A stretch of 64,000 nucleotides of DNA from Winogradskyella algicola (GTDB lineage: Bacteria > Bacteroidota > Bacteroidia > Flavobacteriales > Flavobacteriaceae): NCBI RefSeq assembly GCF_005869935.1, contig NZ_SZQF01000001.1, forward strand, positions 744,001 to 808,000, given 5' to 3'. The position numbers and the translations under genes were made by a program. The notes beneath the pieces are model-generated. The model made no database searches and was not told where the DNA came from. It saw only the letters and a program-made list of their open reading frames with translations. Within the stretch, counting starts at the first letter, position 1, and every line of letters starts with the position of its first letter. Of this stretch, positions 3,027-61,536 are shown in pieces.

Positions 3027-6000
3027 ATGAAATACAACTTCAACGACATAGAGAAAAAGTGGCAAGACTACTGGGCAAAAAACGAAACCTTTAAAGCGTC
3101 TAATAACAGCGACAAACCAAAATACTACGTGTTAGATATGTTCCCTTACCCAAGTGGAGCTGGTTTGCACGTTGGGCATCCGCTCGGCTACATCGCTAGT
3201 GATATTTATGCGCGTTACAAGCGTCATAAAGGATTTAATGTTTTGCATCCACAAGGCTACGATTCGTTTGGTTTACCTGCGGAACAGTATGCGATACAAA
3301 CAGGTCAGCATCCTGTGGTAACAACAGAGGCGAATATTAAAACCTATCGTCGTCAGTTAGACCAAATTGGATTCTCATTCGATTGGAGTAGAGAAGTACG
3401 CACAAGTAATCCTGAATATTACAAATGGACACAATGGATTTTCATTCAGTTGTTTGAATCATGGTACAACTACGATAGCAACAAAGCAGAAAATATTGAT
3501 ACCTTAATCAAAATGTTTGAAGCAGAAGGAAATACCAACGTGAATGCAGCTTGCGATGATGACATTAATCCGTTTACTGCTGAAGAATGGAGCGCTTTTT
3601 CAGAGACTGAAAAACAAAATATTCTTTTAAAATACAGATTGACCTATTTAGCAGAAACCGAAGTGAACTGGTGTCCTGCTTTAGGAACCGTTTTAGCCAA
3701 TGACGAAATTGTAAATGGCGTTTCAGAACGTGGTGGTCATCCTGTAATCCGTAAAAAAATGACTCAATGGAGTATGCGTATTTCGGCTTATGCAGAACGT
3801 TTGCTTCAAGGTTTAGATACCATTGATTGGACAGATGCACTTAAAGACATCCAAAAAAACTGGATAGGTAAATCGGTTGGTGCTTCAGTAACTTTCAATG
3901 TGATTCCAAATGATGCTGTCACTTCGAGCGCAGTCGAGAAGTCTCAAATCGAAGTCTTCACCACAAGACCAGACACCATTTTCGGTGTGTCGTTTATGAC
4001 CTTAGCACCAGAGCACGAGCTTGTGACACAAATTACAACAGACGAACAAAAAGCTGAGGTTGAAGCCTACATAGAAGCCACTGCAAAACGTAGTGAGCGC
4101 GACCGTATGGCAGATGTAAAAACCATTTCAGGGGTGTTTACAGGTGCGTATGCTGAGCATCCATTTACCAAAGAACCAATTCCGATTTGGATAGGCGATT
4201 ACGTATTAGCAAGCTACGGCACAGGAGCCGTTATGGCAGTACCTTGTGGAGACCAACGCGATTACGATTTTGCCAAGCACTTTAATATTCCGATTCCAAA
4301 TATTTTTGAAGGAGTTGATATTTCTGAGGAAGCCTTTGCGTCTAAGGATAACGTTAAGATTACCAATAGCGATTTCCTTAACGGAATGAACTACAAGAAA
4401 GCGACTAAGCGCGCTATTTTCGAATTAGAACAAATCGGTCAAGGCGAAGGAAAAACCAATTACCGTTTGCGCGATGCTGTGTTTTCTCGTCAGCGTTATT
4501 GGGGCGAACCATTCCCAGTATATTATAAGGATGGTATGCCACAAATGATAGACGAAAAACATTTACCATTAACCTTGCCAGAAGTTGAAAAATACTTACC
4601 AACAGAAGAAGGTGAACCACCATTAGGACGTGCAGACGTTTGGGCTTGGGACACTAATACAAACTCGGTTGTGTCAAATGATCTGGTGGCTGAGGCACTC
4701 GAAGCCACAAAATCAGACACTTCGAGAACCTCAGTGTCCGATGACGGCATTTACCCACTAGAACTCAACACTATGCCAGGTTGGGCAGGAAGCTCTTGGT
4801 ACTTCTTCCGTTATATGGAAGAGCAAGCCAACAGAGATGAAGCTTTCGCTACTGAAGATGCACTAAAATATTGGGAAAATGTAGATTTATATATTGGTGG
4901 TAGCGAGCACGCTACAGGACACTTACTGTACTCTCGTTTTTGGGTAAAGTTTTTATACGATAGAGGTTTTGTTGGAGTGGATGAACCATTTAAAAAGCTC
5001 ATTAACCAAGGGATGATACTTGGCACTAGTGCTTACGCATACAAGATTCATTGTTTTATAGCAGCGAAAAATGAAGAAGACACCTCTGAAAAAAGATGGT
5101 CTACAGAGGGAGAAGGCTTTATTTCAATAGACTTTTTAGAAAAAGTACTTGATGTAGATAAATTTGTGTATAATGGAAATGAATTTTTTAGTCACGGATT
5201 TGTTGATAATCTCGAAAAAAGACTCTCTTATCTAATGGAAGTTTTGGATATGCCAGAAAATATTCAAGAAATGATAATCAAAAAAGAGGAAACTTTAATA
5301 ATGACTGCTGTTTCAGTTCCTGTTATCGTTGACTATGTTAATTCTAGTGATGAGCTTGATGTTCAGGCCTTTAAAAACTGGAGGCCTGAATCTAAAAATA
5401 TGAAGTTCTATACACTACCTAATAAAAACTTTAAACTGGTCAGAACAGTCGAAAAAATGTCCAAATCCAAATACAATGTCGTTAATCCAGATGATATTGT
5501 AGAAGATTATGGCGCAGACAGCTTACGTTTGTACGAAATGTTTCTTGGGCCATTAGAACAATACAAACCTTGGAATACAGCAGGTATCACAGGAGTACAC
5601 GGTTTCCTTAAAAAACTTTGGAAGTTATTTCATACGGGAGAAAATGGTGCGTTCTATGTGGACTCTTCCCCTTTGGGGAAGTCGGAAGGGGCTGAGGCTT
5701 TAAAAACACTTCATAAAACCATTAAAAAGGTAGAGGAAGACATCGAGAATTTCTCGTTCAATACGTCGGTTTCTACGTTTATGATTGCGGTAAATGAGTT
5801 AACAGCGCAAAAGTGTACAAGTAAAGAAATCTTAGAGCCATTATTAGTGTTAGTGTCGCCTTATGCACCACACATTGCTGAAGAGTTATGGGAACAATTA
5901 GGGCATACAGAATCTATTTCAACAGCACCTTTCCCAAAATTTGAGGAAAAACATTTGGTAGAGCGTTCTAAAAATTATCCGATTTCGTTTAATGGCAAAA

Positions 6001-6152
6001 TGCGTTTCACGCTAGAATTACCATTAGATATGAGCAAGGATGAGATTGAAAAAACAGTCTTAGCACACGAAAAAACACAAGAACAATTACAAGGCCGCAT
6101 ACCTAAAAAGGTGATTGTAGTGCCAGGTAAGATTGTGAATATTGTAGGGTAA
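3027..6152 (+). CDS. leuS: leucyl-tRNA synthetase, enlarged by in-frame repeats
   Basis: Charges tRNA-Leu in the cytoplasm. Class I signatures are intact: HVGH at residues 48-51 and KMSKS at 810-814, with editing-domain text (TTRPDTIFG) between. At 1041 residues it is clearly longer than typical Bacteroidota LeuRS (roughly 920-950 from memory). Part of the excess is explained by palindromic repeats read in frame: residues about 298-307 (AVTSSAVEKSQ, a TCGAGCGCAGTCGAGA element), 554-571 (two 23-base palindromes) and 880-889 (SSPLGKSEGA, a CTTCCCCTTTGGGGAAG element). The leucine-specific insertion between GMILG (662-666) and KMSKS is also long, about 144 residues, and locally AT-rich. All catalytic segments remain in one frame, so the enzyme should be functional. 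Confidence 0.97.
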   Translation: MKYNFNDIEKKWQDYWAKNETFKASNNSDKPKYYVLDMFPYPSGAGLHVGHPLGYIASDIYARYKRHKGFNVLHPQGYDSFGLPAEQYAIQTGQHPVVTTEANIKTYRRQLDQIGFSFDWSREVRTSNPEYYKWTQWIFIQLFESWYNYDSNKAENIDTLIKMFEAEGNTNVNAACDDDINPFTAEEWSAFSETEKQNILLKYRLTYLAETEVNWCPALGTVLANDEIVNGVSERGGHPVIRKKMTQWSMRISAYAERLLQGLDTIDWTDALKDIQKNWIGKSVGASVTFNVIPNDAVTSSAVEKSQIEVFTTRPDTIFGVSFMTLAPEHELVTQITTDEQKAEVEAYIEATAKRSERDRMADVKTISGVFTGAYAEHPFTKEPIPIWIGDYVLASYGTGAVMAVPCGDQRDYDFAKHFNIPIPNIFEGVDISEEAFASKDNVKITNSDFLNGMNYKKATKRAIFELEQIGQGEGKTNYRLRDAVFSRQRYWGEPFPVYYKDGMPQMIDEKHLPLTLPEVEKYLPTEEGEPPLGRADVWAWDTNTNSVVSNDLVAEALEATKSDTSRTSVSDDGIYPLELNTMPGWAGSSWYFFRYMEEQANRDEAFATEDALKYWENVDLYIGGSEHATGHLLYSRFWVKFLYDRGFVGVDEPFKKLINQGMILGTSAYAYKIHCFIAAKNEEDTSEKRWSTEGEGFISIDFLEKVLDVDKFVYNGNEFFSHGFVDNLEKRLSYLMEVLDMPENIQEMIIKKEETLIMTAVSVPVIVDYVNSSDELDVQAFKNWRPESKNMKFYTLPNKNFKLVRTVEKMSKSKYNVVNPDDIVEDYGADSLRLYEMFLGPLEQYKPWNTAGITGVHGFLKKLWKLFHTGENGAFYVDSSPLGKSEGAEALKTLHKTIKKVEEDIENFSFNTSVSTFMIAVNELTAQKCTSKEILEPLLVLVSPYAPHIAEELWEQLGHTESISTAPFPKFEEKHLVERSKNYPISFNGKMRFTLELPLDMSKDEIEKTVLAHEKTQEQLQGRIPKKVIVVPGKIVNIVG
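3918..3945 (+). repeat. palindromic repeat, TCGAG type, inside leuS
   Basis: The core TCGAGCGCAGTCGAGA is flanked by complementary dinucleotides CT and AG, with GTCA before and TC after. The same core occurs at 46030-46053 (arms CA/TG), 60681-60706 (arms CC/GG) and inverted at 46064-46085. Here it is translated as part of the LeuRS editing-domain region. Confidence 0.85.
4686..4708 (+). repeat. palindromic repeat, CTGAG-TCGAAG type, inside leuS
   Basis: A 23-base element with core CTGAGGCACTCGAAG and perfect outer arms GTGG/CCAC. It is read in frame within LeuRS just before the conserved PLELNTMPGWAG segment. A second copy in the opposite orientation follows 7 bases later, and a third lies after leuS at 6170-6188. 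Confidence 0.85.
4716..4738 (-). repeat. palindromic repeat, CTGAG-TCGAAG type, inside leuS, inverted copy
   Basis: On the minus strand the core reads CTGAGGTTCTCGAAG with outer arms GACA/TGTC. The arms differ from those of the neighbouring copy at 4686-4708 but remain complementary, so pairing potential is kept while the sequence changes. Confidence 0.85.
5665..5699 (+). repeat. CTTCCCC-TTT-GGGGAAG element inside leuS
   Basis: The hairpin CTTCCCCTTTGGGGAAG at 5665-5681 is followed by TCGGAAGGGGCTGAGGCT. The same element opens hemW (60347-60380), and related copies end ruvC (60276-60300) and rimM (37041-37075). It is translated here as SSPLGKSEGAEA, between the C-terminal LeuRS helices. Confidence 0.85.
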
Positions 6153-6155
6153 CTA

Positions 6156-6199
6156 ATTCCTGCGTGTCACACTGAGCTTGTCGAAGTGAAAGCAGGAAT
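6156..6199 (+). repeat. nested hairpin repeat downstream of leuS
   Basis: Outer arms ATTCCTGC (6156-6163) and GCAGGAAT (6192-6199) pair perfectly over 8 bases. They enclose CACTGAGCTTGTCGAAGTG (6170-6188), the CTGAG-TCGAAG element also found twice in leuS. The hairpin begins 3 bases after the leuS stop and has no U-run, so it may shape mRNA 3' ends without being a classical terminator. Confidence 0.75.
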
Positions 6200-6212
6200 C
6201 TCAATATTAATT

Positions 6213-6258
6213 GTCAGTTCAAGTGTTCCAACCGGTAGTGTCGGAATGTATCGAGAAC
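6213..6258 (+). repeat. palindromic repeat, GTCAGTTC...GAGAAC type, intergenic
   Basis: GTCAGTTCAAGTG (6213-6225) and TATCGAGAAC (6249-6258) bracket an internal TTCC/GGAA hairpin. It belongs to the same family as 6721-6764 and the copy inside the glycosyltransferase gene at 57088-57129. It lies 30 bases before the small BamE-like gene. Confidence 0.7.
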
Positions 6259-6287
6259 GCAATAGCTAATAATTAAAATAAAAGATT

Positions 6288-6641
6288 ATGCAACTAAAAA
6301 GAATTGGTAAAATTAGTGTATTCTTTTTGGTTGCTGTAGTCTTAGCACTTATTCTTATAAGAATTCTGGAGGAGCCTTTTGATACGCAAAAGTGGCAATC
6401 AGAACCATTAAAACGCTACGAAATGGTAGATGATATCATAGAATCTCAAATTTTATCAGGCAAACCAAAGTCTGAAATTATTGAAATTTTAGGTCAACCA
6501 GATTCAAAACTAAATACATCAAAAGACGCTTTTATTTATAACATCGGAAATCCGCCAAGTTTTTTTTCATCTCAAAAAGAGTATTTACTTATTGTTTTTA
6601 AAAATGAACGTGTTGAAGATGTTTCTTTAGCTGTTGATTAA
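6288..6641 (+). CDS. small BamE/SmpA-like membrane-anchored protein
   Basis: A 117-residue protein with one N-terminal hydrophobic helix (about residues 8-25) and no lipobox cysteine, so it is probably inner-membrane anchored with the rest in the periplasm. The segment SEIIEILGQPDSK followed by short beta-like stretches (AFIYNIGN, YLLIVFKNERVEDVSL) resembles the BamE/OmlA-like fold, in which a helix-loop 'GxPD' precedes a three-stranded sheet. I infer fold similarity only; the specific role is unknown. It is flanked on both sides by palindromic repeats. Confidence 0.7.
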   Translation: MQLKRIGKISVFFLVAVVLALILIRILEEPFDTQKWQSEPLKRYEMVDDIIESQILSGKPKSEIIEILGQPDSKLNTSKDAFIYNIGNPPSFFSSQKEYLLIVFKNERVEDVSLAVD

Positions 6642-6653
6642 GTTTCGTCATCT

Positions 6654-6985
6654 AGCATCTCGATACTTTTCTTCGTGCCTCAGAAACACTCGATGTGACG
6701 CTATGTTGTTTTTAGTTCACGTCAGTTCGAGTGAAATCGCCATAAGCGATTTTATATCGAGAACTATTTTTTGGCATATTTTTAAAAGCATCTCGATACA
6801 ATTTTTCGTGCCTCAAAATCACTCGATGTGACGTTCTGTTGTTTTTCACTTTGTCAGTTAGAGTGAAATCACCAAAAAGCGATTTTGCACTTCGACAAGC
6901 TCTGCAGAACTATCGGGAACTATCAGAGGATATACTTTTTCTTTGTGCTTCGAAAATGCTCTATGTGACATTGTAGTTTCCTCTT
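6654..6985. repeat. tandem repeat array of about 133-base units
   Basis: The gap 6642-7173 has no convincing gene. Two units, starting at 6654 and 6787 (AGCATCTCGATAC in both), each hold an inverted palindromic element ending CACTCGATGTGACG and then a direct element starting GTCAGTT (6721-6764 is intact; the one from about 6854 is degraded). A third, decayed partial unit begins near 6920 (ATACTTTTTCTTTGTGC). In the intact copy the arms AAATCGC and GCGATTT pair perfectly. The remainder, 6986-7173, is AT-rich and shows nothing further. Confidence 0.75.
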
Positions 6986-7173
6986 CATCGAAAAAATAAT
7001 AATTTCGTCTATTGAGTTATTGTTCTGAAAAACAGCGTTTTATTTCAAATAATTTAAAATTCATTCTTCAAAATAATAATTCCGTAAAAATGACGCTCAA
7101 ACCATCCTATTATTTGGATAGCTAGATTTTTTGAGTGTATTTCATAGTGCTATTAACCACAATACAACAGCAA

Positions 7174-8274
7174 ATGAAAATCGGAGTCCCAAGAGAAATC
7201 AAGAACAACGAAAACCGTGTTGGTATGACACCAGCAGGAGTTTATGAACTTATTAAGAATGACCACACTGTTTATGTCCAAAAAAATGCTGGATTAGGCA
7301 GTGGTTTTTTTGATGAAGATTACAAAGAAGTTGGCGCTACCATTCTGGATACGATAGATGAAGTTTACGCTTCTGGCGAAATGATTGTAAAAGTAAAAGA
7401 GCCTATTACCGTTGAATATGATTTAATTAAACCACATCATGTGGTATTTACCTATTTCCATTTTGCGTCTAGCGAACCCTTAACTAAAGCGATGTTAAAA
7501 AGCAAAGCAGTTTGTATTGCCTATGAAACTGTTGAAGACGAAGATGGGTCATTGCCATTATTAACACCAATGTCTGAGGTGGCAGGTCGTATGGCGATTC
7601 AACAAGGAGCAAAATATCTTGAAAAACCAATTAAAGGACGAGGTGTCTTACTAGGCGGAGTGCCTGGAGTACCACCTGGAAAAGTATTAGTTTTAGGTGC
7701 TGGTACTGTTGGTATACAAGCCGCTAAAATGGCGGCTGGTTTGGGTGCTCATGTTACGATTATGGATATTAACATGAAGCAATTACGTTATGTTAATGAT
7801 GTAATGCCAAACCATGTAGTTACGGAATTTTCTAGCGAATTCAATATTAGAAAACGTATTAAAGATCACGATTTAATAGTTGGTGGTGTATTATTAAAAG
7901 GGGCAAAGGCGCCAAACTTAATCACCAGAGATATGCTTAAAAACATGCGACCAGGAACTGTTATAGTAGATGTTGCAGTAGATCAAGGAGGTTGTGTGGA
8001 GACCTCAAAACCAACTACTCACGAAGACCCAACTTACATTGTAGATGATGTGGTACACTATTGTGTGGCAAATATGCCGGGAGCTGTGCCATATACATCG
8101 ACATTAGCGTTAACAAATGTCACTTTACCTTATGTGATTAGATTGGCCAATCAAGGTTGGGAAGTAGCTTGTGCTAAAGACCAATCGCTGAAAAAAGGAA
8201 TAAATATAGCTAACGGTAAAATTATTTATGAAGAGATTGCAGAAGCTTTCAATTGGTCGGTAGATGCTATGTGA
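7174..8274 (+). CDS. ald: alanine dehydrogenase
   Basis: NAD-dependent oxidative deamination of L-alanine to pyruvate and ammonium. I chose the ATG at 7174, because MKIGVPREIKNNENRVG is the canonical N-terminus; an in-frame GTG at 7135 would add 13 unlikely residues. From this start it is 366 residues, the family size. Substrate-site text VKVKEP and YFHFA is present, as is the Rossmann motif VLGAGTVGIQAAKMA with the acidic residue of IMDIN following. It is preceded by a repeat-rich gap and followed by an independent gene, so it is probably monocistronic. Confidence 0.95.
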   Translation: MKIGVPREIKNNENRVGMTPAGVYELIKNDHTVYVQKNAGLGSGFFDEDYKEVGATILDTIDEVYASGEMIVKVKEPITVEYDLIKPHHVVFTYFHFASSEPLTKAMLKSKAVCIAYETVEDEDGSLPLLTPMSEVAGRMAIQQGAKYLEKPIKGRGVLLGGVPGVPPGKVLVLGAGTVGIQAAKMAAGLGAHVTIMDINMKQLRYVNDVMPNHVVTEFSSEFNIRKRIKDHDLIVGGVLLKGAKAPNLITRDMLKNMRPGTVIVDVAVDQGGCVETSKPTTHEDPTYIVDDVVHYCVANMPGAVPYTSTLALTNVTLPYVIRLANQGWEVACAKDQSLKKGINIANGKIIYEEIAEAFNWSVDAM

Positions 8275-8366
8275 AATTTCAATAACTGACATTTTTTCTT
8301 AACGTTAATTTGGCGCATTTTTTGCTATTCATTTAGTACATTTACATTAATTAAAAAAAGAAAATT

Positions 8367-9062
8367 ATGTTAGGATATTATATATTAATAGGTGCAATTG
8401 CTCTTGTTAGTTGGGCTGTTAGCAGTCAGTTAAAGCGTAAATTTGCTAAATACTCTAAAATTCAATTACGTAACGGAATGAGTGGTAGAGAAATTGCTGA
8501 AAAGATGTTAGCAGATAACGGCATTTATGATGTTGAAGTTATTTCTACACCAGGACAATTAACAGATCACTATAATCCAAAAAACAAGACCGTAAATTTA
8601 AGTGAAGCGGTTTATAACCAGCGTAATGCTGCTGCTGCTGCTGTTGCCGCTCATGAGGTTGGTCATGCAGTACAACATGCACAAGCGTATAGTTATTTGC
8701 AAATGCGTTCTCAATTAGTGCCAATTGTTAGTGTAACCTCTGGTATGTCGCAATGGGTTGTCTTGGGCGGATTAGTTCTCGGTGCTGCAGCAGGTGTTGG
8801 TCTTGGGTATTACATTGCTATAGCAGGTTTGGCCATGATGGGTTTTGCAACGTTGTTTAGCTTTATAACATTACCTGTAGAATACGATGCGAGTAATAGA
8901 GCATTAGCTTGGTTAAAAGCAAAAAACATGGTGACTCCAGAAGAATATAAAGGTTCTGAAGATGCTCTTAAATGGGCTGCTAGAACATATTTAGTAGCTG
9001 CTATAGGTGCTTTAGCTTCGTTGTTATATTGGGCATTGCAAGTTTTTGGCGGAAGAGATTAA
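8367..9062 (+). CDS. YugP-type neutral zinc metallopeptidase, membrane-bound
   Basis: A 231-residue membrane protein of the YugP/Zn_protease_2 family. HEVGH at residues 96-100 is the HExxH zinc motif, within AAHEVGHAVQHA. EYDASNRA further on supplies the usual third ligand region. There is an N-terminal helix (about 3-20) and further hydrophobic helices around 130-160 and near the C-terminus. Natural substrates are not established for the family. A clear terminator follows at 9075-9106. Confidence 0.9.
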   Translation: MLGYYILIGAIALVSWAVSSQLKRKFAKYSKIQLRNGMSGREIAEKMLADNGIYDVEVISTPGQLTDHYNPKNKTVNLSEAVYNQRNAAAAAVAAHEVGHAVQHAQAYSYLQMRSQLVPIVSVTSGMSQWVVLGGLVLGAAAGVGLGYYIAIAGLAMMGFATLFSFITLPVEYDASNRALAWLKAKNMVTPEEYKGSEDALKWAARTYLVAAIGALASLLYWALQVFGGRD

Positions 9063-9074
9063 AAAAATCATAAT

Positions 9075-9106
9075 AAAAAAAGCCCTTAGAAATCAGGGCT
9101 TTTTTG
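9075..9106 (+). terminator. bidirectional rho-independent terminator
   Basis: AGCCCT/AGGGCT stem, extended by A-run/T-run pairing, lying between the convergent genes ending at 9062 (plus) and 9124 (minus). T-runs on both sides allow use from either direction. Confidence 0.85.
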
Positions 9107-9123
9107 TTTTTATATAGTGTATA

Positions 9124-9723
9124 TTATTCTTTTACTTTAGGATTATAAATAACAATGATTTGTATAACAATAGCAAGAAACACCAAAAAATAAATTTCTA
9201 TCTGTGTAAAGAGTTCAACTGTATCTATGGCTTTTTTACTTATTGACATTTGTCTACCACCTTCTCTAATCTGAATTTTTGACAACTCATCTAGATTATC
9301 TTTTATACTTGAAATTAGTATCAGCGATGCTGATGTTTTTTCTGGATCAAAGCTTAATTTTTTAGTTTCAAGCTTAGATAATGACTTAAAATTCAATTTT
9401 AAATCTTCAAATATTACACTTTCTTCTTTTGTGAGTTTGGTTTGTTCAAAGCGTGATATTAAATTATTTAATTGTGTATTGACCTTAGAATTTTTTTCAA
9501 TAAAAAAAAGAGAGTCTCTGGATATTAGAGCAATTTCCTTTTTGTTAACCGATTTAGACATTTCAAAAATTAATTCCTTAGCAATTAATCGATCTTCATA
9601 AATAGTTACCACAGAATCTCTTACTCTTACAAAGTTATTTCTATCTATTAGATTAGTTGAGGCAATTAAAACAAAGACTAAAAGAATACCCAGAATCCAT
9701 TTTATCTTATTGAAGAATGACAT
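9124..9723 (-). CDS. membrane protein with chemoreceptor-like four-helix-bundle domain
   Basis: A 199-residue protein with one transmembrane helix at the N-terminus (about 7-26) and another near the C-terminus (about 172-192). The extracytoplasmic region between them is entirely helical. This is the topology of the 4HB_MCP sensory module without any HAMP or signalling domain after the second helix. I infer a periplasmic four-helix-bundle sensor-like protein; no output domain is seen and the ligand is unknown. It stands alone, convergent with the YugP gene. Confidence 0.7.
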   Translation of the reverse strand: MSFFNKIKWILGILLVFVLIASTNLIDRNNFVRVRDSVVTIYEDRLIAKELIFEMSKSVNKKEIALISRDSLFFIEKNSKVNTQLNNLISRFEQTKLTKEESVIFEDLKLNFKSLSKLETKKLSFDPEKTSASLILISSIKDNLDELSKIQIREGGRQMSISKKAIDTVELFTQIEIYFLVFLAIVIQIIVIYNPKVKE

Positions 9724-9824
9724 AAATACAGTAATTTAATATTGATATTATTTTAAAAATAAAAAATAGAACGGCATCGTTTAAAACAATTAGCGTCTAT
9801 TTAACAGTTTGTATAAAAAAAGCC

Positions 9825-12223: not shown

Positions 12224-12245
12224 CGTCCTAAACAACACAAAAATT

Positions 12246-46026: not shown

Positions 46027-46085
46027 TGTCACATCGAGCGCAGTCGAGATGTCTGCAGTAGAGATTTCTCGACTGCGCTCGAAAT
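46027..46085. repeat. inverted pair of TCGAG-type palindromic repeats, intergenic
   Basis: GTCACATCGAGCGCAGTCGA continues to GATGTC (46027-46053), and TTTCTCGACTGCGCTCGAAA is at 46065-46084. Each is itself palindromic and together they can form a longer hairpin. They lie between the trxA terminator and the DUF58 gene and show the element in a non-coding setting. Confidence 0.85.
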
Positions 46086-46118
46086 GATAGATGAATAAAA
46101 GATTTGCAATAAGATATT

Positions 46119-51656: not shown

Positions 51657-51747
51657 TCAATGAAACACCTATTATCAAACTTTAAGCACACAGCAGAATG
51701 TTAATTGGGTGTTCCATGTGACCTTTGAAAAAAATAAATATTAACAC

Positions 51748-52107
51748 ATGAAACAATTAACCAAAGCAGAAGAAGAAATAATGCAAGCCCTTTGGCAGCT
51801 AAAAAAGGCTAATGTAAAATCTATAATTAAGGTTTTGCCAGAGCCAAAACCTGCTTATAATACTGTGTCTACAATTGTTAGGATTTTAGAGTCTAAAGGT
51901 TTTGTGGATTATGAAAAGGAGGGTAAAGGTCACACGTATTTCCCGATTGTAGCAAGAGAAGCTTATAGTAACCAGTCTATAAATAAGTTATTAGACAATT
52001 ATTTTCAAGGCTCTTTTAAGAGTATGGTGTCTTTTTTTGTGAAAAAGAATGATGTAGATATTAATGATATAGAGCGTTTACTGAATGAAATTAATAAAGA
52101 GAAGTAA
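51748..52107 (+). CDS. BlaI/MecI/CopY family transcriptional repressor
   Basis: A 119-residue winged-helix repressor. LTKAEEEIMQALWQLKKANVKSI and AYNTVSTIVRILESKGFVDY form the DNA-binding domain, and the C-terminal helix mediates dimers. It lies 2 bases before an M56 peptidase gene, the BlaI-BlaR1 arrangement: the membrane peptidase relieves repression after sensing a signal. There is no beta-lactamase nearby, so the signal is unlikely to be only a beta-lactam. Confidence 0.93.
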   Translation: MKQLTKAEEEIMQALWQLKKANVKSIIKVLPEPKPAYNTVSTIVRILESKGFVDYEKEGKGHTYFPIVAREAYSNQSINKLLDNYFQGSFKSMVSFFVKKNDVDINDIERLLNEINKEK

Positions 52108-54560: not shown

Positions 54561-55296
54561 AAAACCGTATCGCCAATTTCTGCATCAATCGCAACACTTC
54601 TACATACAACCAAATAAGCGTTGCTAAAAGTCCCCAAGTAGCTAACCACTCTTTGTATTTTGGTGCTCTATTTTTGTAACGCTCTATGTAATCAAAATCT
54701 AAAAGCAGTGCAAAGGATGCAACAATAGCTGCTAAAATATTAAAGACAATGGCAAACCAAGAGGTGCCTCTGATGTAGGTTTTTATACCAAAAAAGCTCA
54801 ATATCCAAGAAATAAGATAAGTAACCATTATACTTATTGTGGCAGTAATTATAACACTTCGTAGCTTTTTGGTTACAACAATAACTCTAAATTGATATAG
54901 CAAAAGCATTACAAAAAATGTAATGATGGTTACTCCAATAGCTTGGTATGGTAATTCAGGAAAATTTCGGTGTGCATAAGACGAAAAGCCACCTAAAAAA
55001 AAGCCTTTGGCAATAACGTAAAGCGGTACTAAAATATGTGCCCAGTTTTGCCTTACAGAAATTAAAACACTCACAACTACTGCGCCTAACATACCACCTA
55101 ATGTAAACCAGCGCATTGGAGTTCCGGCTTCGTTAAGTTTCCACAAGTATCCTGTAATAGCAGCAATAACTAAAATACCAATCATGGATTTAAAGAAAAT
55201 ACCAGCAACAGACATGGTTTTTGAAGATGATTTGCCATCATCCCAAAAATAACCATTAAAAACAGGGTTAGAGGTTTTAAAATTTCTTAGGCTCAT
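54559..55296 (-). CDS. Bax inhibitor-1/YccA family membrane protein
   Basis: A 245-residue seven-helix protein of the YccA subgroup. The start is ATG at 55296 (MSLRNFKTSNPVFNGYFWDD), the family N-terminus; a longer reading frame adds ten residues overlapping the upstream gene. In the family, members act as pH-sensitive calcium leak channels or interact with FtsH; which applies here is unknown. One base separates it from the stop of the upstream minus-strand gene, so translation is coupled. Confidence 0.9.
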   Translation of the reverse strand: MSLRNFKTSNPVFNGYFWDDGKSSSKTMSVAGIFFKSMIGILVIAAITGYLWKLNEAGTPMRWFTLGGMLGAVVVSVLISVRQNWAHILVPLYVIAKGFFLGGFSSYAHRNFPELPYQAIGVTIITFFVMLLLYQFRVIVVTKKLRSVIITATISIMVTYLISWILSFFGIKTYIRGTSWFAIVFNILAAIVASFALLLDFDYIERYKNRAPKYKEWLATWGLLATLIWLYVEVLRLMQKLAIRF

Positions 55297-55297
55297 T

Positions 55298-56161
55298 TTA
55301 CAAGTTGAATTTATAACCAACCGCAATATCTGTGGAGAAGTTTCCTTGGTTGTCTAAAAGAAGTGCAAATAACTCACCATAAATTATAGTGATATAACTG
55401 TTACTTCCTACTTTAATATCAGAGCCAACACCAAAAATAAAAGGAATGTCAAACGAGGTTTCGCTTGATTCAATTTCCATATCGCTTTCGTTTAGGAATG
55501 TAACATTAGAAAGGTTGAGTGTTGCTAATTTTACTTGTCCATAAATTGAAAATGTTTCCTTGTTTATAAATCTGTAACGATATCCTAACGAAAATTCTGT
55601 AGTACTGTAAGGAAAATCATCACTTTCAAAAGCGTGTCTAGCTTGCAAAAAACCAGAGTGTCTTGGTAAAACATTAGCTTCATAAATTTCTAATTCAGCA
55701 CCAAGCATTGGTGTTTTAGTGTTATCAGGATTACCAACAAATGGATTATTTGTAATTCCACCAGAAAACCCAAGTCTAAACTGAACACTACTTTCAGTAC
55801 TCGTAGAAGTGTAGTTAGAATCTACAGAAGCATTATAACTGTCTATATAGTTCCTAAGGCTGTAAAGCGTTAATTTTAGCTTGTCTGTAGGTATGCCATT
55901 GGTAAGGCTGCTAAGTGTAGATTTATATTCTTCTTGATAATCATTATTATCGTCTTTGGTATTCTTCAGTTCAGTAATACTGCCATCTTCAGTTTTAACA
56001 AAATAACGGTATTTACCATCAATAACATTCCAAAGTAAATCGAGTTTGCCGTTAATTTCGGTTTTAAGTTCTAAGGATTCACCATTAACGGTGTAGGTTT
56101 CCTGACTATAATTCAACTGAAAAGCCAGACAGAACAGTATTGCAAAAAGAATTTTTTTCAT
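55298..56161 (-). CDS. predicted outer-membrane beta-barrel protein, unknown
   Basis: From the ATG at 56161 (MKKILFAILFCLAFQLNYSQ) the protein has 287 residues with a clear signal peptide. The N-terminal third is polar; from about residue 130 alternating hydrophobic strands (VQFRLGFSGGI, YSTTEFSLGYRYRF, SIYGQVKLATLNL, SYITIIYGELFALL, STDIAVGYKFNL) end in an aromatic/hydrophobic C-terminus, which fits an 8-10-strand barrel. I do not recognise the family. Tightly followed by the YccA gene. Confidence 0.75.
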   Translation of the reverse strand: MKKILFAILFCLAFQLNYSQETYTVNGESLELKTEINGKLDLLWNVIDGKYRYFVKTEDGSITELKNTKDDNNDYQEEYKSTLSSLTNGIPTDKLKLTLYSLRNYIDSYNASVDSNYTSTSTESSVQFRLGFSGGITNNPFVGNPDNTKTPMLGAELEIYEANVLPRHSGFLQARHAFESDDFPYSTTEFSLGYRYRFINKETFSIYGQVKLATLNLSNVTFLNESDMEIESSETSFDIPFIFGVGSDIKVGSNSYITIIYGELFALLLDNQGNFSTDIAVGYKFNL

Positions 56162-56250
56162 TTGTTCGTTTTTAAGTGATTTGCGGTATATCAACTACTC
56201 ATTACAGGTGTTGGTTTCAGTAAAGCTATTAAAAATATCTTAAGAAATGG

Positions 56251-57399
56251 TTACTTTTTAAAAGTTCTACCTTTCCATTTGTATGGCTTAAAAAGCGATA
56301 GTACAACAATGTATACGCTAAAGAAAGGATAAATTAGGCAAGACCAAATGTATGAAAACAAGACGTTTTCTTGTTTAAAAAAACGTGAGGTTTTAAATAA
56401 TAAGAGAAAATCAATACTGAATTTTATTACCAATAAAGCAATTACAATTCTTGTTGGTATGAATCCAAAAAATAAAAGCGGAAGTACTGTGATACAAGCA
56501 AGATTTCCTAAAAAAATAACGAGTCCAACTAACTTTGAAAACCAATTAGGATTATGGCTTGTTTTAGAAGCCCAGCGTAATCGTTGTTGAATTAAAGTGC
56601 GGCGGTTTGAAACAGGTTTTGTAGTTACTATGGCTTTATCAGATTTTAAATAAAAGACTTTTTTAGAATTAGCGTTTTTGAATTTCTCAAGTAGAAAAAT
56701 GTCGTCGCCACTAGCCAAATTGTCGTTGCCACTAAAACCATCTACGGATTGAAATATAGATTTTTTATACCCAAAATTAGCACCATTACATAGAAAAGGA
56801 AGTTTAAGACCAAAACCACCAATATTAGCACCTTGTAAACTTAAAACATCAAGTATTTGAAAACGTTTTAAAAAGGAACTGCCATCATTGTAAGTCACTG
56901 GAGCAACAATACAATTTGGTTGGTGAGTTTGAATACATTCATCATAAGTGTCTAGCCAATATTTTGGTAAAACGCAATCTGCATCTGTGGTAATAATCCA
57001 ATCGTGTTTTGCGATTTTGATTGCTGTAGAAATAGCGTCTTTTTTTGGGGAATTAGTAACACTATTGTTCTTTATAACCTTAATGATGTCAGTTCGAGTA
57101 TCACGCTTTTTTCGTGATGTATCGAGAACGTTTTGGATCAATTCAACTGAATTATCTTTAGAATCATCATCAACCAAAATAATTTCGAACATTGTCTTAG
57201 GGTAATTCAACCTATGTATTGAGTTCAATAGTTCACGTAAATTTTCAGCCTCATCTTTAAAAGGAATAACAACAGAAAACTTAGTTTTTGGTTCTAAATC
57301 CTGAAGCTCAAAATCTTCAACCTTGTCAAAACCATAGATGAAACCAACTATAAAAATTAAATAGACAATTACAATTGTTATGAGTGTTGTAGAAATCAT
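56251..57399 (-). CDS. membrane-anchored GT2 glycosyltransferase with in-frame repeat
   Basis: A 382-residue family 2 glycosyltransferase with an N-terminal transmembrane helix (about 3-23) and two or three C-terminal helices (from about 290). The GT-A motifs are FSVVIPFKDEAENL, EIILVDDDSKDNS, ITTDADC and the Q/RxxRW-like QQRLRWASK. Residues 91-104 (VLDTSRKKRDTRTD) are encoded by a 42-base palindromic repeat lying between the VDDDS strand and the next conserved block. The gene overlaps the UPF0104 gene by 4 bases; the pair probably builds or exports a glycolipid. Confidence 0.88.
   Translation of the reverse strand: MISTTLITIVIVYLIFIVGFIYGFDKVEDFELQDLEPKTKFSVVIPFKDEAENLRELLNSIHRLNYPKTMFEIILVDDDSKDNSVELIQNVLDTSRKKRDTRTDIIKVIKNNSVTNSPKKDAISTAIKIAKHDWIITTDADCVLPKYWLDTYDECIQTHQPNCIVAPVTYNDGSSFLKRFQILDVLSLQGANIGGFGLKLPFLCNGANFGYKKSIFQSVDGFSGNDNLASGDDIFLLEKFKNANSKKVFYLKSDKAIVTTKPVSNRRTLIQQRLRWASKTSHNPNWFSKLVGLVIFLGNLACITVLPLLFFGFIPTRIVIALLVIKFSIDFLLLFKTSRFFKQENVLFSYIWSCLIYPFFSVYIVVLSLFKPYKWKGRTFKK
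57088..57129 (+). repeat. palindromic repeat, GTCAGTTCGAG...TCGAGAAC type, inside the GT2 gene
   Basis: GTCAGTTCGAG at the left, TATCGAGAAC at the right, and internal arms ATCACG/CGTGAT around a T-rich loop. It is the same family as the intergenic 6721-6764 copy, whose internal arms are AAATCGC/GCGATTT. It is translated on the opposite strand within the glycosyltransferase. Confidence 0.85.
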
Positions 57400-58364
57400 G
57401 CTTTGGTTTTAGGGAGTTTAAAATTTAAAACAAAATAGCTGCCAAGCACGCTAGGGATGGCAAAATTTATTATCCACATAATTAAAACAATGCATAAAAT
57501 GGTTAGCTCATCTACACCAATATGACTAAATAAAAAAACAGCCACACTTCCTTTTATTACAACATCGAATATAGAAATTGTTGGTATTATAGAAGCTAAT
57601 AGATACATACTTGTGATAACAACCATATCGTCATAGTAGCTGAGGTTAACTTCAAAAATTGTTAACAGATAATAAAATTGAAATGAAAAAATAAGGTATC
57701 GTAATAGTGATAAGATAATATTACTTACTTGCACTTTTAATGGTATATTTTTAATATAATCTATAATTTGATTAACAGAATATCCTCTAATATTAAAGCG
57801 TTTATACTTCATTCCGAAAATAGCAAAAACAGATATTAATAAAATTAAAGCACCAAATCTTACGACTTTATAATAATCAACTTCTAGTTGATAGCGATTA
57901 ATAAAAATTACTAATCCTATAACACCAAAAAGGGTTGTTATGGTCATTTGCCCAATATTACCCAAGAGATTAAGTAGTAAAACACGTTTTCTATAGGTTT
58001 TGGTAAAGTAGGCAGCTTTTGCACCATAATCGCCAATTCGGTTTGGTGTAATTAGCGATGCTGTTAGACCACCAAGACTTTGCTCTAAAGCGTCTTTAAA
58101 AGAAATTGATTTAATAGTTTTAACTAAAGTTTTCCATTTCAAAATTTCAAAAAACCAATTAAAACCACTTAAAATGACTAAAAAAATGATGTTTATTGTT
58201 GAAAAAGTCTTGTTTTCTTTCAAAAAAGCTATAAAATCACTCAGATGAAGTTGCCCATTTTCGGTGAGTTTTGAATAAATAAAATAAAATGCACCAACAA
58301 CAATGCTTAACTTAATCAGCACAAAGAAGAATTGCTTAGTTTTGTAAGGCACATTGTTGTACAT
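57396..58364 (-). CDS. UPF0104/lysylphosphatidylglycerol synthase-like membrane protein
   Basis: A 322-residue polytopic protein with about eight helices, matching the membrane domain of MprF-like (UPF0104) proteins: LSGFNWFFEILKWK, GGLTASLITPNRIGDYGAKAA and YLLASIIPTISIFDVVIKGS are the conserved stretches. The aminoacyl-transferase domain of MprF is absent, so it is probably a flippase-like transporter for a lipid or glycolipid. It precedes and overlaps the GT2 gene by 4 bases (ATGA), suggesting a shared pathway. Confidence 0.88.
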   Translation of the reverse strand: MYNNVPYKTKQFFFVLIKLSIVVGAFYFIYSKLTENGQLHLSDFIAFLKENKTFSTINIIFLVILSGFNWFFEILKWKTLVKTIKSISFKDALEQSLGGLTASLITPNRIGDYGAKAAYFTKTYRKRVLLLNLLGNIGQMTITTLFGVIGLVIFINRYQLEVDYYKVVRFGALILLISVFAIFGMKYKRFNIRGYSVNQIIDYIKNIPLKVQVSNIILSLLRYLIFSFQFYYLLTIFEVNLSYYDDMVVITSMYLLASIIPTISIFDVVIKGSVAVFLFSHIGVDELTILCIVLIMWIINFAIPSVLGSYFVLNFKLPKTKA

Positions 58365-58391
58365 ACTGCAAATTAAACCAAAAACTCACAC

Positions 58392-59030
58392 ATGAAACTT
58401 AATTTAAAACAATACCTTTTTTTAGTTAGTGTCTTATGTATTGCGTTACATAGTAATGCGCAATTCAAAGCTACAAGCAAATGGAAAGCTCTTTTTGCTG
58501 TGGGTTTTAATTATCCTACAACAGATGGTTTTGTAGATGGTACATATGCTCAATCCCTAAACTTTCCTACCGTAAATATTGGTGTACAACACATGTTTAA
58601 GCGTACATATGGAGTAAAATTAGATTATGGTTTTAATCGTTTTAGCAATGATGATGAATCACCGGAGTTTAAGATAAATTACTCGCGAATAAACGCACAA
58701 TTTGTATTTGACCCTACAGAATATTTAGGTTTTTTACCACCACGTTTAAGAACCATTTTGCATGCAGGGCCAGGATTTAGTTTCGCAAAACCTTTGGGTG
58801 GTTTAGAAGATAACAAGCAGTCTTATTTAAATCTATTAGGTGGTTTAGAATTACACTATGCTATTAACGAAAAAGTATCTGTTTATACAGATCTGGCATA
58901 TATTTATGGTTTAACATCTTTAGAAGAATATGATCCTGCCATAAGTGGGCTAGGTGCATTCAACGGAAGTGTATTCAATGTTACTTTTGGTATTGCTGTA
59001 TCGCTAAGTGGTTGTCAGTATTGTGATTAA
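58392..59030 (+). CDS. outer-membrane beta-barrel protein, OmpA-barrel-like
   Basis: A 212-residue exported protein with signal peptide ending SNAQ. Strand-like alternation (WKALFAVGFNYP, YGVKLDYGFNRF, NAQFVFDP, LNLLGGLELHYAI, VYTDLAYIYGLTS, NVTFGIAVSLSG) indicates an eight-stranded barrel as in the OmpA N-terminal domain. It ends GCQYCD, a cysteine pair that in longer flavobacterial OmpA-family proteins precedes calcium-binding repeats and the peptidoglycan domain; these are missing here. It may be a barrel-only member or the remnant of a longer gene. Confidence 0.78.
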   Translation: MKLNLKQYLFLVSVLCIALHSNAQFKATSKWKALFAVGFNYPTTDGFVDGTYAQSLNFPTVNIGVQHMFKRTYGVKLDYGFNRFSNDDESPEFKINYSRINAQFVFDPTEYLGFLPPRLRTILHAGPGFSFAKPLGGLEDNKQSYLNLLGGLELHYAINEKVSVYTDLAYIYGLTSLEEYDPAISGLGAFNGSVFNVTFGIAVSLSGCQYCD

Positions 59031-59140
59031 ATAACTCAAAATAAATTATAGACTTGATTTAGATAAAGTTGAAATAATTTTTGAGACTTTTGAAATATTA
59101 GTTTTCAGTAAAAAACAATCTTATGTTATTAAAAAACAAA

Positions 59141-59708
59141 ATGAAGTTAATAGTTTGTGTAAGTGTTTTAATGGCTATGACTAGCCTTAGTTATGCACAG
59201 GAAAAAAAAATCAGAAAATGAGCCAATAGAAGAAGTAGAAGAAATAGAAGAAGAGGTAGAAGAAGAATTTCAGGAGGTCGAAATTTTAGAAATAACTTCT
59301 AATGAAGAATCAGATTTTATTCCTTTTTATGTCGTGGATGAAGTGCCTTATCTATCAGATTGTAAAAGTATTAAAGAAAAAAAGAAAAGAAAGACGTGTG
59401 TACAGGAGTATATCCAAATGCATGTAATGCGAAAATTTAACTCGGAAGTAATTGAAGGATTAGGACTTGCAGCAGGTAAAAAACGCATTTTTGCACAATT
59501 TAAAATTGATAAACAAGGTAAGGTTATTAATGTATTAGCAAGAGGACCACATCCTGTATTAGAGAGAGAAGTAGAAAGAGTCATTAACCTTTTGCCTGAG
59601 TTTACACCAGGAATACATCAAGGTGAGACTGTAATTGTAGCATATTCTTTGCCTATTATTTTTACTGTTGAAGAATATGAGGTGAAGGATGATCAGCAGA
59701 AAAACTAA
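59141..59708 (+). CDS. TonB-C-like exported protein, frame interrupted at an A9 tract
   Basis: The signal peptide MKLIVCVSVLMAMTSLSYAQ starts at 59141 (or six codons earlier at 59123). It runs into a tract of nine A residues at 59202-59210 and then, in that frame, stops at once. The rest of the protein (SENEPIEEVEEIEE onward) continues in another frame that would be joined if the tract had eight As. The downstream part has a Glu-rich stretch, DCKSIKEKKKRKTC with the spaced cysteine pair, and a TonB-C-like fold matching the M56 protein C-terminus. A downstream-only product (ATG at 59193) would lack export. Slippage, phase variation or a sequencing error are all possible. Confidence 0.7.
59202..59210 (+). 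other. A9 homopolymer at the frame break
   Basis: GAAAAAAAAAT within the signal-peptide/mature-region junction. Loss of one A restores a single exported reading frame. Confidence 0.75.
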
Positions 59709-59725
59709 TACTTGTTAGACTTTAA

Positions 59726-60304
59726 ATGGGTAAAGAAAAGATAATATTAGGTATAGATCCAGGAACAACTATAATGGGATTTGGACTCATTAAAGTGATT
59801 GGTAAGCAGATGCAGTTTATGCAGCTCAACGAATTGCATCTTAAAAAGTACGATGATCATTACCTGAAACTTAAACTCATTTTTGAGCGTACCGTAGAAC
59901 TCATCGATACCTATCATCCAGATGAAATAGCCATAGAAGCTCCTTTCTTTGGTAAGAATGTACAGAGTATGCTAAAACTTGGTCGCGCTCAAGGTGTTGC
60001 CATGGCAGCAGGATTATCTCGCGAAGTGCCTATTACAGAGTATTCGCCCAAGAAAATTAAAATGGCAATTACGGGCAATGGTAATGCCAGTAAAGAACAG
60101 GTGGCAAAGATGTTACAAAGCACACTCAATCTAAAAGAGTTGCCAAAAAATCTCGATTCTACAGATGGATTAGCGGCAGCGGTTTGTCATTTTTATAATC
60201 AAGGTCGCGTTGAGGTTGGTAAAAGTTATACAGGCTGGGCAGCTTTTGTAAAACAGAATGAAAATCGAATAGAAAAGCCCCTTAATCCCCAAAGGGGAAA
60301 ATAA
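59726..60304 (+). CDS. ruvC: Holliday junction resolvase RuvC
   Basis: Endonuclease that cuts Holliday junctions with RuvAB. Acidic catalytic residues are in order: D11 in LGIDPGTT, E71 in IEAPFFG, and D144/D147 in LDSTDGLAAAVCH. It has 192 residues; the last eight or so (KPLNPQRGK) are encoded by a palindromic repeat that also supplies the stop. The normal end 'GWAAFVK' precedes it. hemW begins 5 bases after the stop, within a second, oppositely oriented repeat region. Confidence 0.95.
   Translation: MGKEKIILGIDPGTTIMGFGLIKVIGKQMQFMQLNELHLKKYDDHYLKLKLIFERTVELIDTYHPDEIAIEAPFFGKNVQSMLKLGRAQGVAMAAGLSREVPITEYSPKKIKMAITGNGNASKEQVAKMLQSTLNLKELPKNLDSTDGLAAAVCHFYNQGRVEVGKSYTGWAAFVKQNENRIEKPLNPQRGK
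60276..60300 (-). repeat. CCCC-TTT-GGGG element forming the ruvC 3' end
   Basis: AGCCCCTTAATCCCCAAAGG continues GGAAA: on the minus strand TTTCCCCTTTGGGGATTAAG, a relative of the element at 60347-60380 but in opposite orientation. It encodes the last ruvC residues. Confidence 0.75.
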
Positions 60305-60309
60305 ATATA

Positions 60310-61536
60310 ATGGATAAACAATCAAAAAAAGGATTGAGTTATCGTTCTTCCCCTTTGGGGAAGTTAGAACGGGCTGGAGGCATCTACATACATATTCCTT
60401 TTTGTAAACAAGCTTGTTATTACTGTGATTTTCATTTTTCAACATCAATGAAAAAGAAAGATGAATTGGTAAGCGCTTTAGTAAAAGAGCTACAGTTACG
60501 TAAAGATGAATTCAAAAACATTGAAGTACAAACTATCTATTTTGGTGGAGGAACCCCTAGCCTATTGACGAATGACGAATTAAGATTATTGATTGAAGAA
60601 GTTTATAAAAATTACAAGGTAATTAATAATCCCGAAATCACGCTCGAAGCCAATCCAGATGATTTGATAGGAACTCAGCTGTCACCTCGAGCGCAGTCGA
60701 GAGGTCTTTACGAAAATTATAGAAGTATTGGTATTAACAGACTAAGTATAGGTATTCAATCATTTTTTGAGAGTGATTTAAAATTGATGAATCGTGCGCA
60801 CAATGCCCAAGAAGCAAAAGAATGTTTGTCTGTAGCAACGCAATACTTCGATAATATTTCAATCGATTTAATTTACGGAATTCAAGGGGCATCACATACA
60901 CAATGGCTTCAAAATATTGATATAGCATTGAGTTATAATGTTCCTCATATTTCGAGTTATGCATTAACAGTTGAGCCCAAAACAGCTTTGGCGTCATTTA
61001 TAAAAAAAGGAATAATAGATGATGTAAACGATGAGCAAGCACATGAACAATTTCATTTGCTCAAGGCTAAACTTGAAGATTCAGGCTTTGTACATTATGA
61101 GCTTTCTAACTTTGGTAAAGAAGGTTACTTTAGTAAAAATAATTCTGCCTATTGGCAAGGTAAACCTTATATGGGAATTGGGCCATCTGCACACTCTTTT
61201 AATGGTAAACAACGTGGTTGGAATGTTAGAAATAATACTAAGTACATCAAAACAATAGAACAAAACGAGCTGCCAATTGAGATTGAAACTTTAACCACAA
61301 CAGACCGTTACAACGAGTATATAATGACAGGTTTAAGAACCATTTGGGGAGTGTCTTTAGATAAGGTTGAAAAAGATTTTGGAAAAACTTATAAAGAATA
61401 CCTAAAAGAACAAGCCGAAACTTTTATAAACCAACATTTATTGTATATTGATGATAAGCACATACGCGTCACTAAAAAAGGACAGTTTTTAAGTGACGGT
61501 ATTGCGAGCCAACTCTTTAAACTTAATTTAGCGTGA
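60310..61536 (+). CDS. hemW: HemW, haem chaperone / radical SAM protein, with two in-frame repeats
   Basis: A 408-residue radical SAM protein of the HemN-like HemW group; HemW carries haem and is not the coproporphyrinogen oxidase itself. The cluster motif CKQACYYC has C32, C36 and C39, and FGGGTPSLL and LSIGIQSF follow. The usual N-terminus is roughly 'AGIYIHIPFC'; here about 20 extra residues (including RSSPLGKLERAG) come from a CTTCCCC-GGGGAAG repeat, because no later start is available before the CxxxCxxC. Residues about 124-134 (LSPRAQSRGLY) are a TCGAG-type repeat inserted just before the conserved INRLSIGIQSF. The 3' end overlaps the cyclase gene by 4 bases. Confidence 0.93.
   Translation: MDKQSKKGLSYRSSPLGKLERAGGIYIHIPFCKQACYYCDFHFSTSMKKKDELVSALVKELQLRKDEFKNIEVQTIYFGGGTPSLLTNDELRLLIEEVYKNYKVINNPEITLEANPDDLIGTQLSPRAQSRGLYENYRSIGINRLSIGIQSFFESDLKLMNRAHNAQEAKECLSVATQYFDNISIDLIYGIQGASHTQWLQNIDIALSYNVPHISSYALTVEPKTALASFIKKGIIDDVNDEQAHEQFHLLKAKLEDSGFVHYELSNFGKEGYFSKNNSAYWQGKPYMGIGPSAHSFNGKQRGWNVRNNTKYIKTIEQNELPIEIETLTTTDRYNEYIMTGLRTIWGVSLDKVEKDFGKTYKEYLKEQAETFINQHLLYIDDKHIRVTKKGQFLSDGIASQLFKLNLA
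60347..60380 (+). repeat. CTTCCCC-TTT-GGGGAAG element at the hemW 5' end
   Basis: CTTCCCCTTTGGGGAAG (60347-60363) followed by TTAGAACGGGCTGGAGG. It is in the same orientation as the leuS copy (5665-5699) and inverted relative to the ruvC copy 47 bases upstream. Confidence 0.85.
60681..60706 (+). repeat. TCGAG-type palindromic repeat inside hemW
   Basis: GTCACCTCGAGCGCAGTCGA then GAGGTC: core TCGAGCGCAGTCGAGA with arms CC/GG. Its reading frame differs from that of the leuS copy (here T-CGA-GCG-CAG-TCG-AGA), so the DNA element rather than a peptide is what is conserved. Confidence 0.88.

Follow-up and report, generated by a model that had tools for sequence, protein, structure and literature searches.

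Repetitive extragenic palindromes (REPs) that carry a CGTC tag form a superfamily described by Di Nocera, De Gregorio and Rocco (2013; PMC3733652), with members in several phyla, the interiors of protein genes included, and the Rickettsia palindromic elements RPE-6 and RPE-4 have been assigned to it. In the parts of that paper drawn on here, to which all our statements about it refer, these repeats "apparently lack a dedicated transposase" and no transposase gene flanked by CGTC repeats was found; for the REPs tagged GTAG, mobilisation by REP-type Y1 tyrosine transposases (RAYTs) has been proposed. Our subject is a set of short tagged palindromes in 64,000 nucleotides of the Winogradskyella algicola genome (contig NZ_SZQF01000001.1, positions 744,001 to 808,000), the whole of which we call the window. 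The complete genome of 3.36 Mb is labelled G000, and its sister and related genomes G001, G026, G028 and so on. We show that families of such palindromes are associated with genes for small GIY-YIG proteins, in a cognate pairing of gene and repeat family.

Like the CGTC REPs, the repeats studied here have an unpaired CGTC or TGTC tag at one end of a palindrome with a short tail; they form inverted dimers, have heterogeneous stems, lie mostly between genes with some copies inside them (those of tRNA synthetases included), occur in Bacteroidetes and have no transposase beside them. In the CGTC REPs the tag may also read TGTC or CCTC, the stem is 8-9 bp long, the loop has 4-5 nt and the unpaired 3-nt tail is mostly CCA, whereas in the repeats designated T1 and T2 below the stem is bulged, the loop longer and the tail CTC-like. 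The window-type repeats also have a GIY-YIG association, of which PMC3733652, in the parts used, makes no report. Thus, although the first-pass annotation of this DNA knew no formal name for the family, a close named superfamily exists, and its analogy with the Rickettsia palindromic elements is apt because RPE-4 and RPE-6 are placed in that superfamily. Those elements too are palindromes in frame inside protein genes, a likeness taken from the text of the same paper and not from their sequences; they have another host, and no nuclease partner is described for them in that source.

REPtrons, in which GTAG REPs accompany a RAYT gene (PMC3733652, PMC6006769, as far as used here), provide a further parallel, with a nuclease-type gene flanked by its own cognate REPs, and solitary REPs and doublets elsewhere. 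In our case, however, the enzyme is of the GIY-YIG and not the HUH/Y1 kind, the tag is YGTC rather than GTAG, and none of 27 Y1 loci is flanked by the repeats. GIY-YIG enzymes include structure-selective and homing nucleases. The proteins described here share a single GIY-YIG domain with the homing endonuclease genes and the small UPF0213-type proteins, but no intron or intein is seen and the palindromic ends belong to a genome-wide repeat family. Among the open-access papers listed in our searches, none links GIY-YIG or DUF559 to such palindromic repeats.

GIY-YIG genes and their cognate repeats

The T1 repeat is laid out as TGTC-ANN-TCGAGCGCAGTCGAGA-NNT-CTC, that is tag, palindrome and tail. 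Inverted T1 pairs about 345-365 bp apart coincide with small GIY-YIG genes; such a gene was predicted from the T1 spacing alone in G036, G032 and G028, and was then found in all three. The T1 element runs from the TGTC-palindrome through 5 to ~25 bp, the ATG, a GIY-YIG open reading frame (ORF) of ~105 aa and its stop to the palindrome-GACA, a total of ~370 bp. Nine T1-flanked elements are listed, eight of them at one orthologous site. Four clades of the protein match PF01541 with E-values of 1e-16 to 2e-18, and the Y, Y, G, R and E of the domain are identical in 44/44 proteins; we take the Y, Y, R and E to be catalytic. The nearest solved structures by sequence are those of the UPF0213 proteins 1zg2 and 1ywl.

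The association is not peculiar to T1. Within the genus we compared 25 distinct small GIY-YIG ORFs whose flanks are complete, some from loci chosen for their repeats and a few from other genera of the order, with 129 other small ORFs. Flanking inverted repeats scoring at least 14 were present at 17 of the former (counting as a miss L241, where the right repeat overlaps the end of the ORF) and 3 of the latter; at a score of at least 16 the numbers were 12/25 and 0/129. Each of 44 distinct small GIY-YIG proteins was then labelled on a tree by the type of repeat lying within ~160 bp, giving T1 for 10, the third type for 11, T2 for 10, the ATTCCTGC-type for 3 and none for 10, with no mixed labels. 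For the 34 typed proteins the four states require 3 parsimony changes, the smallest number possible, whereas 5000 shuffles required 17.9 on average and at least 12 in every case. Some of these loci had been fetched because of their repeats. Protein searches supplied 27 of the proteins (L208-L237, L258-L287). A typed repeat flanks 18 of these on one or both sides, and in 14 the two sides have the same type, an arrangement found at 1/194 control small ORFs. The repeat type follows the protein and not the host, since G000 has third-type and T2 pairs, and G001 T1 and ATTCCTGC pairs, around different genes in each case.

Proteins of the T1-flanked clade A (E 6e-49 or lower, identity 75% or more) occur in 10 of 41 genus genomes searched, with two copies in G028 and none found in G000; in G012, G019 and G029 the best match to a clade A query is the T2-flanked clade. 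The mean number of T1 cores is 9.5 in the ten clade A genomes and 3.4 in 27 without it (p = 0.004, one-sided, with no correction for kinship). Given that the cognate clade was not found in G000, whereas G028 has two copies, the T1 family may be dormant in G000.

How far does the association extend beyond the genus? A scan with five clade D proteins gave 549 relatives. The 80 best of these, which include many metagenome bins, were fetched by protein alone; 73 loci were scored, seven being left out for short flanks. Flanking inverted repeats scoring at least 14 are found at 49 of these, against 2/142 shifted windows in the same loci, and YGTC palindromes stand on both sides of the gene at 30. 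There are 107 palindromes following YGTCA in the 40.9 kb within ~250 bp of the genes and 20 in the 136.6 kb farther away (2.62 and 0.146 per kb), and the tags of 76 of the 107 face outward. The tag is specific, with 103 occurrences near the GIY-YIG genes, where each of six other tag patterns gave 0-4. Among the positive loci are those of Flavobacteriaceae, Bradyrhizobium, Rhodoplanes, a deltaproteobacterium, Nitrotoga, Ignavibacteriaceae, Cloacimonadota, Moraniibacteriota and Aquicultor; no flanking repeats were found at the two Clostridiales loci and the Methylomonas locus. Clade D repeats such as TGTCATTCCTGCGCAGGCAGGAATCCA fit the published CGTC description closely in the parts used, stem and loop included, and many end in CCA.

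The site upstream of an SDR gene provides a view of one orthologous position, readable at 28 of 30 loci (long inserts were read at their ends). The full REP-GIY-YIG-REP arrangement is present at seven, the right-hand repeat alone in G063, and no repeat in G015 and G022. G000 and G003 have a CCCC/GGGG palindrome pair there, a ATTCCTGC-like palindrome is found at one or both ends in eight, and eight have other content.

Sequence, pairing and abundance of the repeats

The first-pass annotation had reported three T1 sites, and these lie where it placed them, flanked by the dinucleotides CT/AG, CA/TG and CC/GG; a fourth, inverted copy is found at 46067-46082. The window thus holds four T1 matches with up to 3 mismatches, against 0.06 expected from shuffles. 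In the whole of G000 the exact core TCGAGCGCAGTCGAGA occurs 14 times, and there are 35 T1-like matches (up to 3 mismatches) compared with 3 for a reversed control; type 2 (T2) has 44 exact copies against none for its reversed control, so that the genome-wide abundance on which the earlier proposal depended is borne out. T1 cores are found in 26/60 relatives, 25 of these 26 belonging to the same genus, and the arm-free T1 pattern in 30/41 genus genomes. When no tag was required in the search, TGTC preceded 10 of the 14 exact cores, with TTTC, TATC, TGCC and TGTG before the others. Tails in the surveyed T1 copies are CTC, CTG, CTT and similar. Inverted pairs no more than 60 bp apart account for 12 of the 35 T1-like matches. 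Of the 35, 19 were compared with G028; 14 of these are found at the same site there, and for the other 5 the G028 sequence pieces compared did not cover the site.

The arm dinucleotides had been said to vary while always remaining complementary, and this holds far beyond chance. With the arms free, tag and kernel fixed and at most one mismatch allowed, a pattern that leaves strongly decayed copies outside the count, 138 of the 150 genus copies listed have fully Watson-Crick arms (shuffle mean 22.1, maximum 39 in 10,000). Among the copies listed the same is true of 67/78 distinct sequences (shuffle mean 9.5, maximum 21), and ten different Watson-Crick arm combinations occur; in G000 alone the figure is 14/15 (shuffle mean 2.9). 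Folding presents a different picture. As single-stranded DNA, three T1 copies and one T2 copy form weak hairpins that are no more stable than shuffles, in T1, some 5 bp are followed by a bulge and 2-3 bp, which enclose a loop of 6 nt or larger. This tells against stability itself being selected, and we reject a stable hairpin as the selected feature.

The other two types reported before were also located, the second at 4690(+), 4720(-) and 6172(+), and the third, with its pairing internal arms, at 6734-6752 (AAATCGC/GCGATTT) and 57100-57118 (ATCACG/CGTGAT). In the window alone the excess of the type-2 pattern over chance is not clear, there being 13 matches with up to 2 mismatches against 8.3 expected, and 9/100 shuffles reaching 13. 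By eye, a GAG..(T)CGA kernel is common to T1, T2 and the leuS type TGTCATTCC..GACGAGGAATCTC, and the outer arms differ; the reported types thus look like one superfamily with exchangeable arms. No Rfam family matches the places of the repeats; the only matches in the window are a tRNA and the S16-Flavobacteria ribosomal protein leader (RF03138, 38258-38292).

Copies inside genes and sites without the repeat

The presence of copies both between genes and, in frame, inside the conserved genes leuS, hemW and a glycosyltransferase gene of the window is confirmed, and sites without the repeat, which the first-pass annotation suggested seeking in sister species, exist. Site 1 of LeuS, between GASVTFNV and VFTTR, could be read in 39 proteins. 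It holds T1 or a T1-like repeat in seven (G000, G028, G032, G019, G022, G029, G021), another tagged palindrome in eight (G008, G011, G012, G015, G017, G018, G030, G009), a type-2 pair in G036, a decayed repeat in G006 and a nuclease domain of DUF559 kind in three (G010 and G023 matching PF04480, G034 by likeness); 19 have no repeat. LeuS site 2 is likewise variable across the genus. Elsewhere in the protein, at window 5040-5320 (codons about 675-762), some 80-90 residues are very different or missing among members of the genus. In hemW a net T1 insertion of 30 bp is found in 3/9 genomes read. At 57087 in the glycosyltransferase gene the third type is present in G000 and G001, and the same place in G028 and G026 has a T1/T2-like repeat; exchange of this gene segment between species is possible, because the neighbouring bases too look more alike within the pairs.

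For G000 as a whole, 60 loci (30 of the 35 T1-like and 30 of the 44 type-2 matches) were surveyed, of which 12 are intragenic, in 8 genes. Of 17 matches lying well inside ORFs of at least 120 aa, five (L026, L027, L028, L030, L051) were dropped because tag and pairing arms are missing; by eye they are likely to be chance coding matches. Hosts outside the window are a class I tRNA synthetase, presumably valS, a 2-oxoacid dehydrogenase acyltransferase, NamZ, an ABM-like gene, a diphosphomevalonate decarboxylase-like gene with two copies, and a GIY-YIG fusion gene, in which Pfam finds GIY-YIG only and the second half has what we take to be a kinase-like look.

Alignment of the window with G028, G001 and G026 reveals presence or absence at 3917, 5664, 6166, 46027, 60680 and 62998; at 4686 the palindromes differ. 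At 6166 the 24-bp type-2 repeat, with its TGTC, lies within the loop of a palindrome that is unbroken in G026; the loop contains another insert in G001 and the same insert as G000 in G028. No clean edge is seen at 3917 or 60680, where a few neighbouring bases differ too. That TGTC might be part of the target site was hinted at by leuS (GTTGTCAGTAAT, AATGTCAATGG), and was rejected on finding that the repeat-less site at 6166 has no TGTC; on this evidence the tag appears to move as part of the repeat. The alignment also contains a sequence of ~88 bp (GAAACACC..TTAATTGGGTGTTCCATGTGACC..) at window 51660-51750 that is present in G000 and G028 and absent there in G001 and G026, with a near copy elsewhere in G026, in the region aligned near window 62305. 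The features of the window are collected in the table. The palindrome at 60346 may lie upstream of the true hemW start rather than inside the ORF.

Table. Tagged palindromes and related repeats of the window, with their state in related genomes.
Position	Strand	Feature	Relatives
3917..3945	+	T1 repeat (TGTC + palindrome + CTC), in frame, leuS site 1	absent G001, G026; other repeat families there in other genus members
4686..4738	.	inverted type-2 pair (GTGG..CCAC, GACA..TGTC), in frame, leuS site 2	same pair G028; different palindrome G001, G026; elsewhere T1, other palindromes or none
5664..5694	+	CTTCCCC-TTT-GGGGAAG palindrome, GGGG foot, inside leuS (SSPLGK); separate family	absent G028, G001, G026
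6156..6199	.	ATTCCTGC..GCAGGAAT palindrome, hosts nested type-2 copy	four-way comparison
6166..6189	+	type-2 repeat TGTCACACTGAGCTTGTCGAAGTG directly after leuS, lying within another palindrome's loop	four-way comparison with G028, G001, G026
6720..6765	+	third-type repeat (CGTCAGTTCGAGTG + arms AAATCGC/GCGATTT + TATCGAGAACT), intergenic	sequence reading
6852..6904	+	degenerate third-type copy, running into type-2-like end	sequence reading
46027..46089	.	inverted T1 doublet, tags outward, intergenic	common to G028; absent G001, G026
57087..57129	+	third-type repeat (ATCACG/CGTGAT) inside glycosyltransferase family 2 gene (56251-57399, -)	same type in G001; TGTCACCTTGAGCGCAGTCGAAAGGTC repeat there in G028, G026
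60346..60376	+	CTTCCCC-TTT-GGGGAAG palindrome, N-terminus of hemW ORF as called from first ATG	near copy G028; absent G001, G026
60680..60706	+	T1 repeat in frame in hemW, adds ~10 residues LSPRAQSRGL	in G028, G001; absent G026, G023, G031, G011, G002, G005
62998..63031	+	TGTC-tagged palindrome ATTGCCA..TGGCAAT, intergenic	in G028; absent G001, G026

DUF559 nucleases were considered as partners of the repeats and set aside, as their flanks carry a different palindrome family. Their domains lie in frame inside leuS (L173, L174, L121) with CCCC/GGGG palindromes at the junctions. The same arrangement is seen in hosts that we take to be recG-like (L176, L178, L179, L180, L188) and metH-like (L166, L187), and a DUF559 domain also stands before what is presumably a dehydratase-like gene. 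Further DUF559 loci of this set are L183, L190, L192, L193 and L181, and five free-standing or fused DUF559 have inverted repeats of 28-34 bp of the type TGTCCCCTTGAGGGGACTTTAGGGGTGT. The CCCC/GGGG pair at the SDR site encloses a small hydrophobic ORF in G000 (L381) and no ORF in G003 (L408, 126 bp); thus the CCCC/GGGG family can carry cargo other than DUF559.

Proposed spread of the tagged palindromes

We think it more probable than not that the cognate GIY-YIG nuclease drives the spread of the tagged palindromes. The autonomous form would be a REP, the GIY-YIG gene (~105 aa) and an inverted REP, with TGTC or CGTC tags at the two outer ends, and the lone repeats and doublets of the window would be its derivatives, left as element ends, internally deleted forms or solitary remains. 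Each nuclease clade has its own cognate repeat family, whose tagged palindrome it would recognise and cut near the tag; repair or strand transfer might then copy the repeat into a new place, singly, in a doublet or together with the gene. If recognition depended on the common kernel and on pairing rather than on the letters of the outer arms, only compensating changes would be tolerated there, and copies inserted in frame where loops of conserved proteins tolerate them would persist. We infer from the sequences the action of the nuclease on the repeats, the place of the cut, the copying step, the cause of the arm covariation and the derivation of solitary repeats from the element rather than the reverse. 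Mobilisation in trans, as the first-pass annotation proposed, is still plausible, the candidate enzyme being a GIY-YIG nuclease; the Y1 transposase it had in mind is not supported.

A number of observations weigh against this proposal. At a score of 14, 24 of the 73 loci of the wider survey lack flanking inverted repeats, and 10/44 GIY-YIG proteins of the genus and order have no typed repeat. A typed repeat stands on at least one side of 25/194 control small ORFs, a set that includes repeat-rich pieces. The T1-labelled proteins of the tree are not independent, because 7/10 are at one orthologous site, and GIY-YIG genes are not alone in having a palindrome pair, since other pairs at the SDR site hold a different ORF or none. 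Many T1 cores are found in genomes without clade A (G012 17, G000 14, G021 11, G033 10, G019 8), and G020 has clade A and no exact T1 core. No clean empty site that would prove gain of T1 in a clade A genome was established, and the weakness of the hairpins belongs on the same side.

Could the repeats be only recognition or landing sites of homing-type GIY-YIG genes, and not be spread by them? The short inverted doublets without a gene, such as that at 46027-46089 and the other close T1-like pairs, could be vacant sites, and the clade-wise pairing would follow from target specificity. In 20/21 genome pairs the GIY-YIG genes at the SDR site resemble each other more than the SDR genes do, and in 19/21 more than the upstream genes do, as homing would produce, but stronger constraint can also explain this. 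Landing sites leave the multiplication of the repeats and their entry into leuS, hemW and other genes without explanation, and the solitary right-hand repeat of G063 is what loss of an element would leave. We consider this, the main alternative, unlikely, if one to be taken seriously. Mobilisation in trans by RAYTs has a precedent in the proposal for the GTAG REPs (PMC3733652, parts used), and a Y1 match is found in 14/38 genomes. However, the one Y1_Tnp match in G000 is weak (23.6 bits) and lies in a frame of 499 aa, no repeat of the four types is found within 330 bp of any of the 27 Y1 loci from the 38 genomes (three of these loci are cut short), and the flanks of 13 loci, read by eye, carry other palindromes; PMC3733652, in the parts used, found no transposase gene with CGTC repeats at its flanks. 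We have thus rejected Y1 transposases as partners of these families, and hold their involvement to be very improbable. The Y1 genes of the genus and order (L139-L148) are flanked, by eye, by short palindromes of their own that are different. Finally, the repeats might be ordinary intergenic regulatory or terminator palindromes with neutral intragenic copies, their arms kept complementary by template switching, which can correct quasi-palindromes. Many copies are indeed intergenic. Repeat-less sites in close kin, inverted doublets, clade-specific pairing with a nuclease and in-frame copies in at least nine genes would all be unexpected, and we give this explanation hardly any credence.

Returning to a spread driven by the cognate nuclease, we see slightly better than even chances that REP-GIY-YIG-REP elements crossing phyla are the source of bacterial CGTC-type repeats, with GIY-YIG lineages co-evolving with their own repeats in the manner of RAYTs, by means of an unrelated enzyme. 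If so, this would supply the partner that CGTC REPs lack according to PMC3733652, as far as used here, and would explain the in-frame entry into conserved genes. REP-type systems could then rest on unrelated nucleases, and many small orphan GIY-YIG genes would acquire a role. The sites in leuS, hemW and the glycosyltransferase gene illustrate how conserved proteins can be lengthened by mobile palindromes. No enzyme had been tied to the CGTC-type palindromes in the parts of PMC3733652 drawn on, and a candidate GIY-YIG nuclease makes the question of their mobility directly testable.

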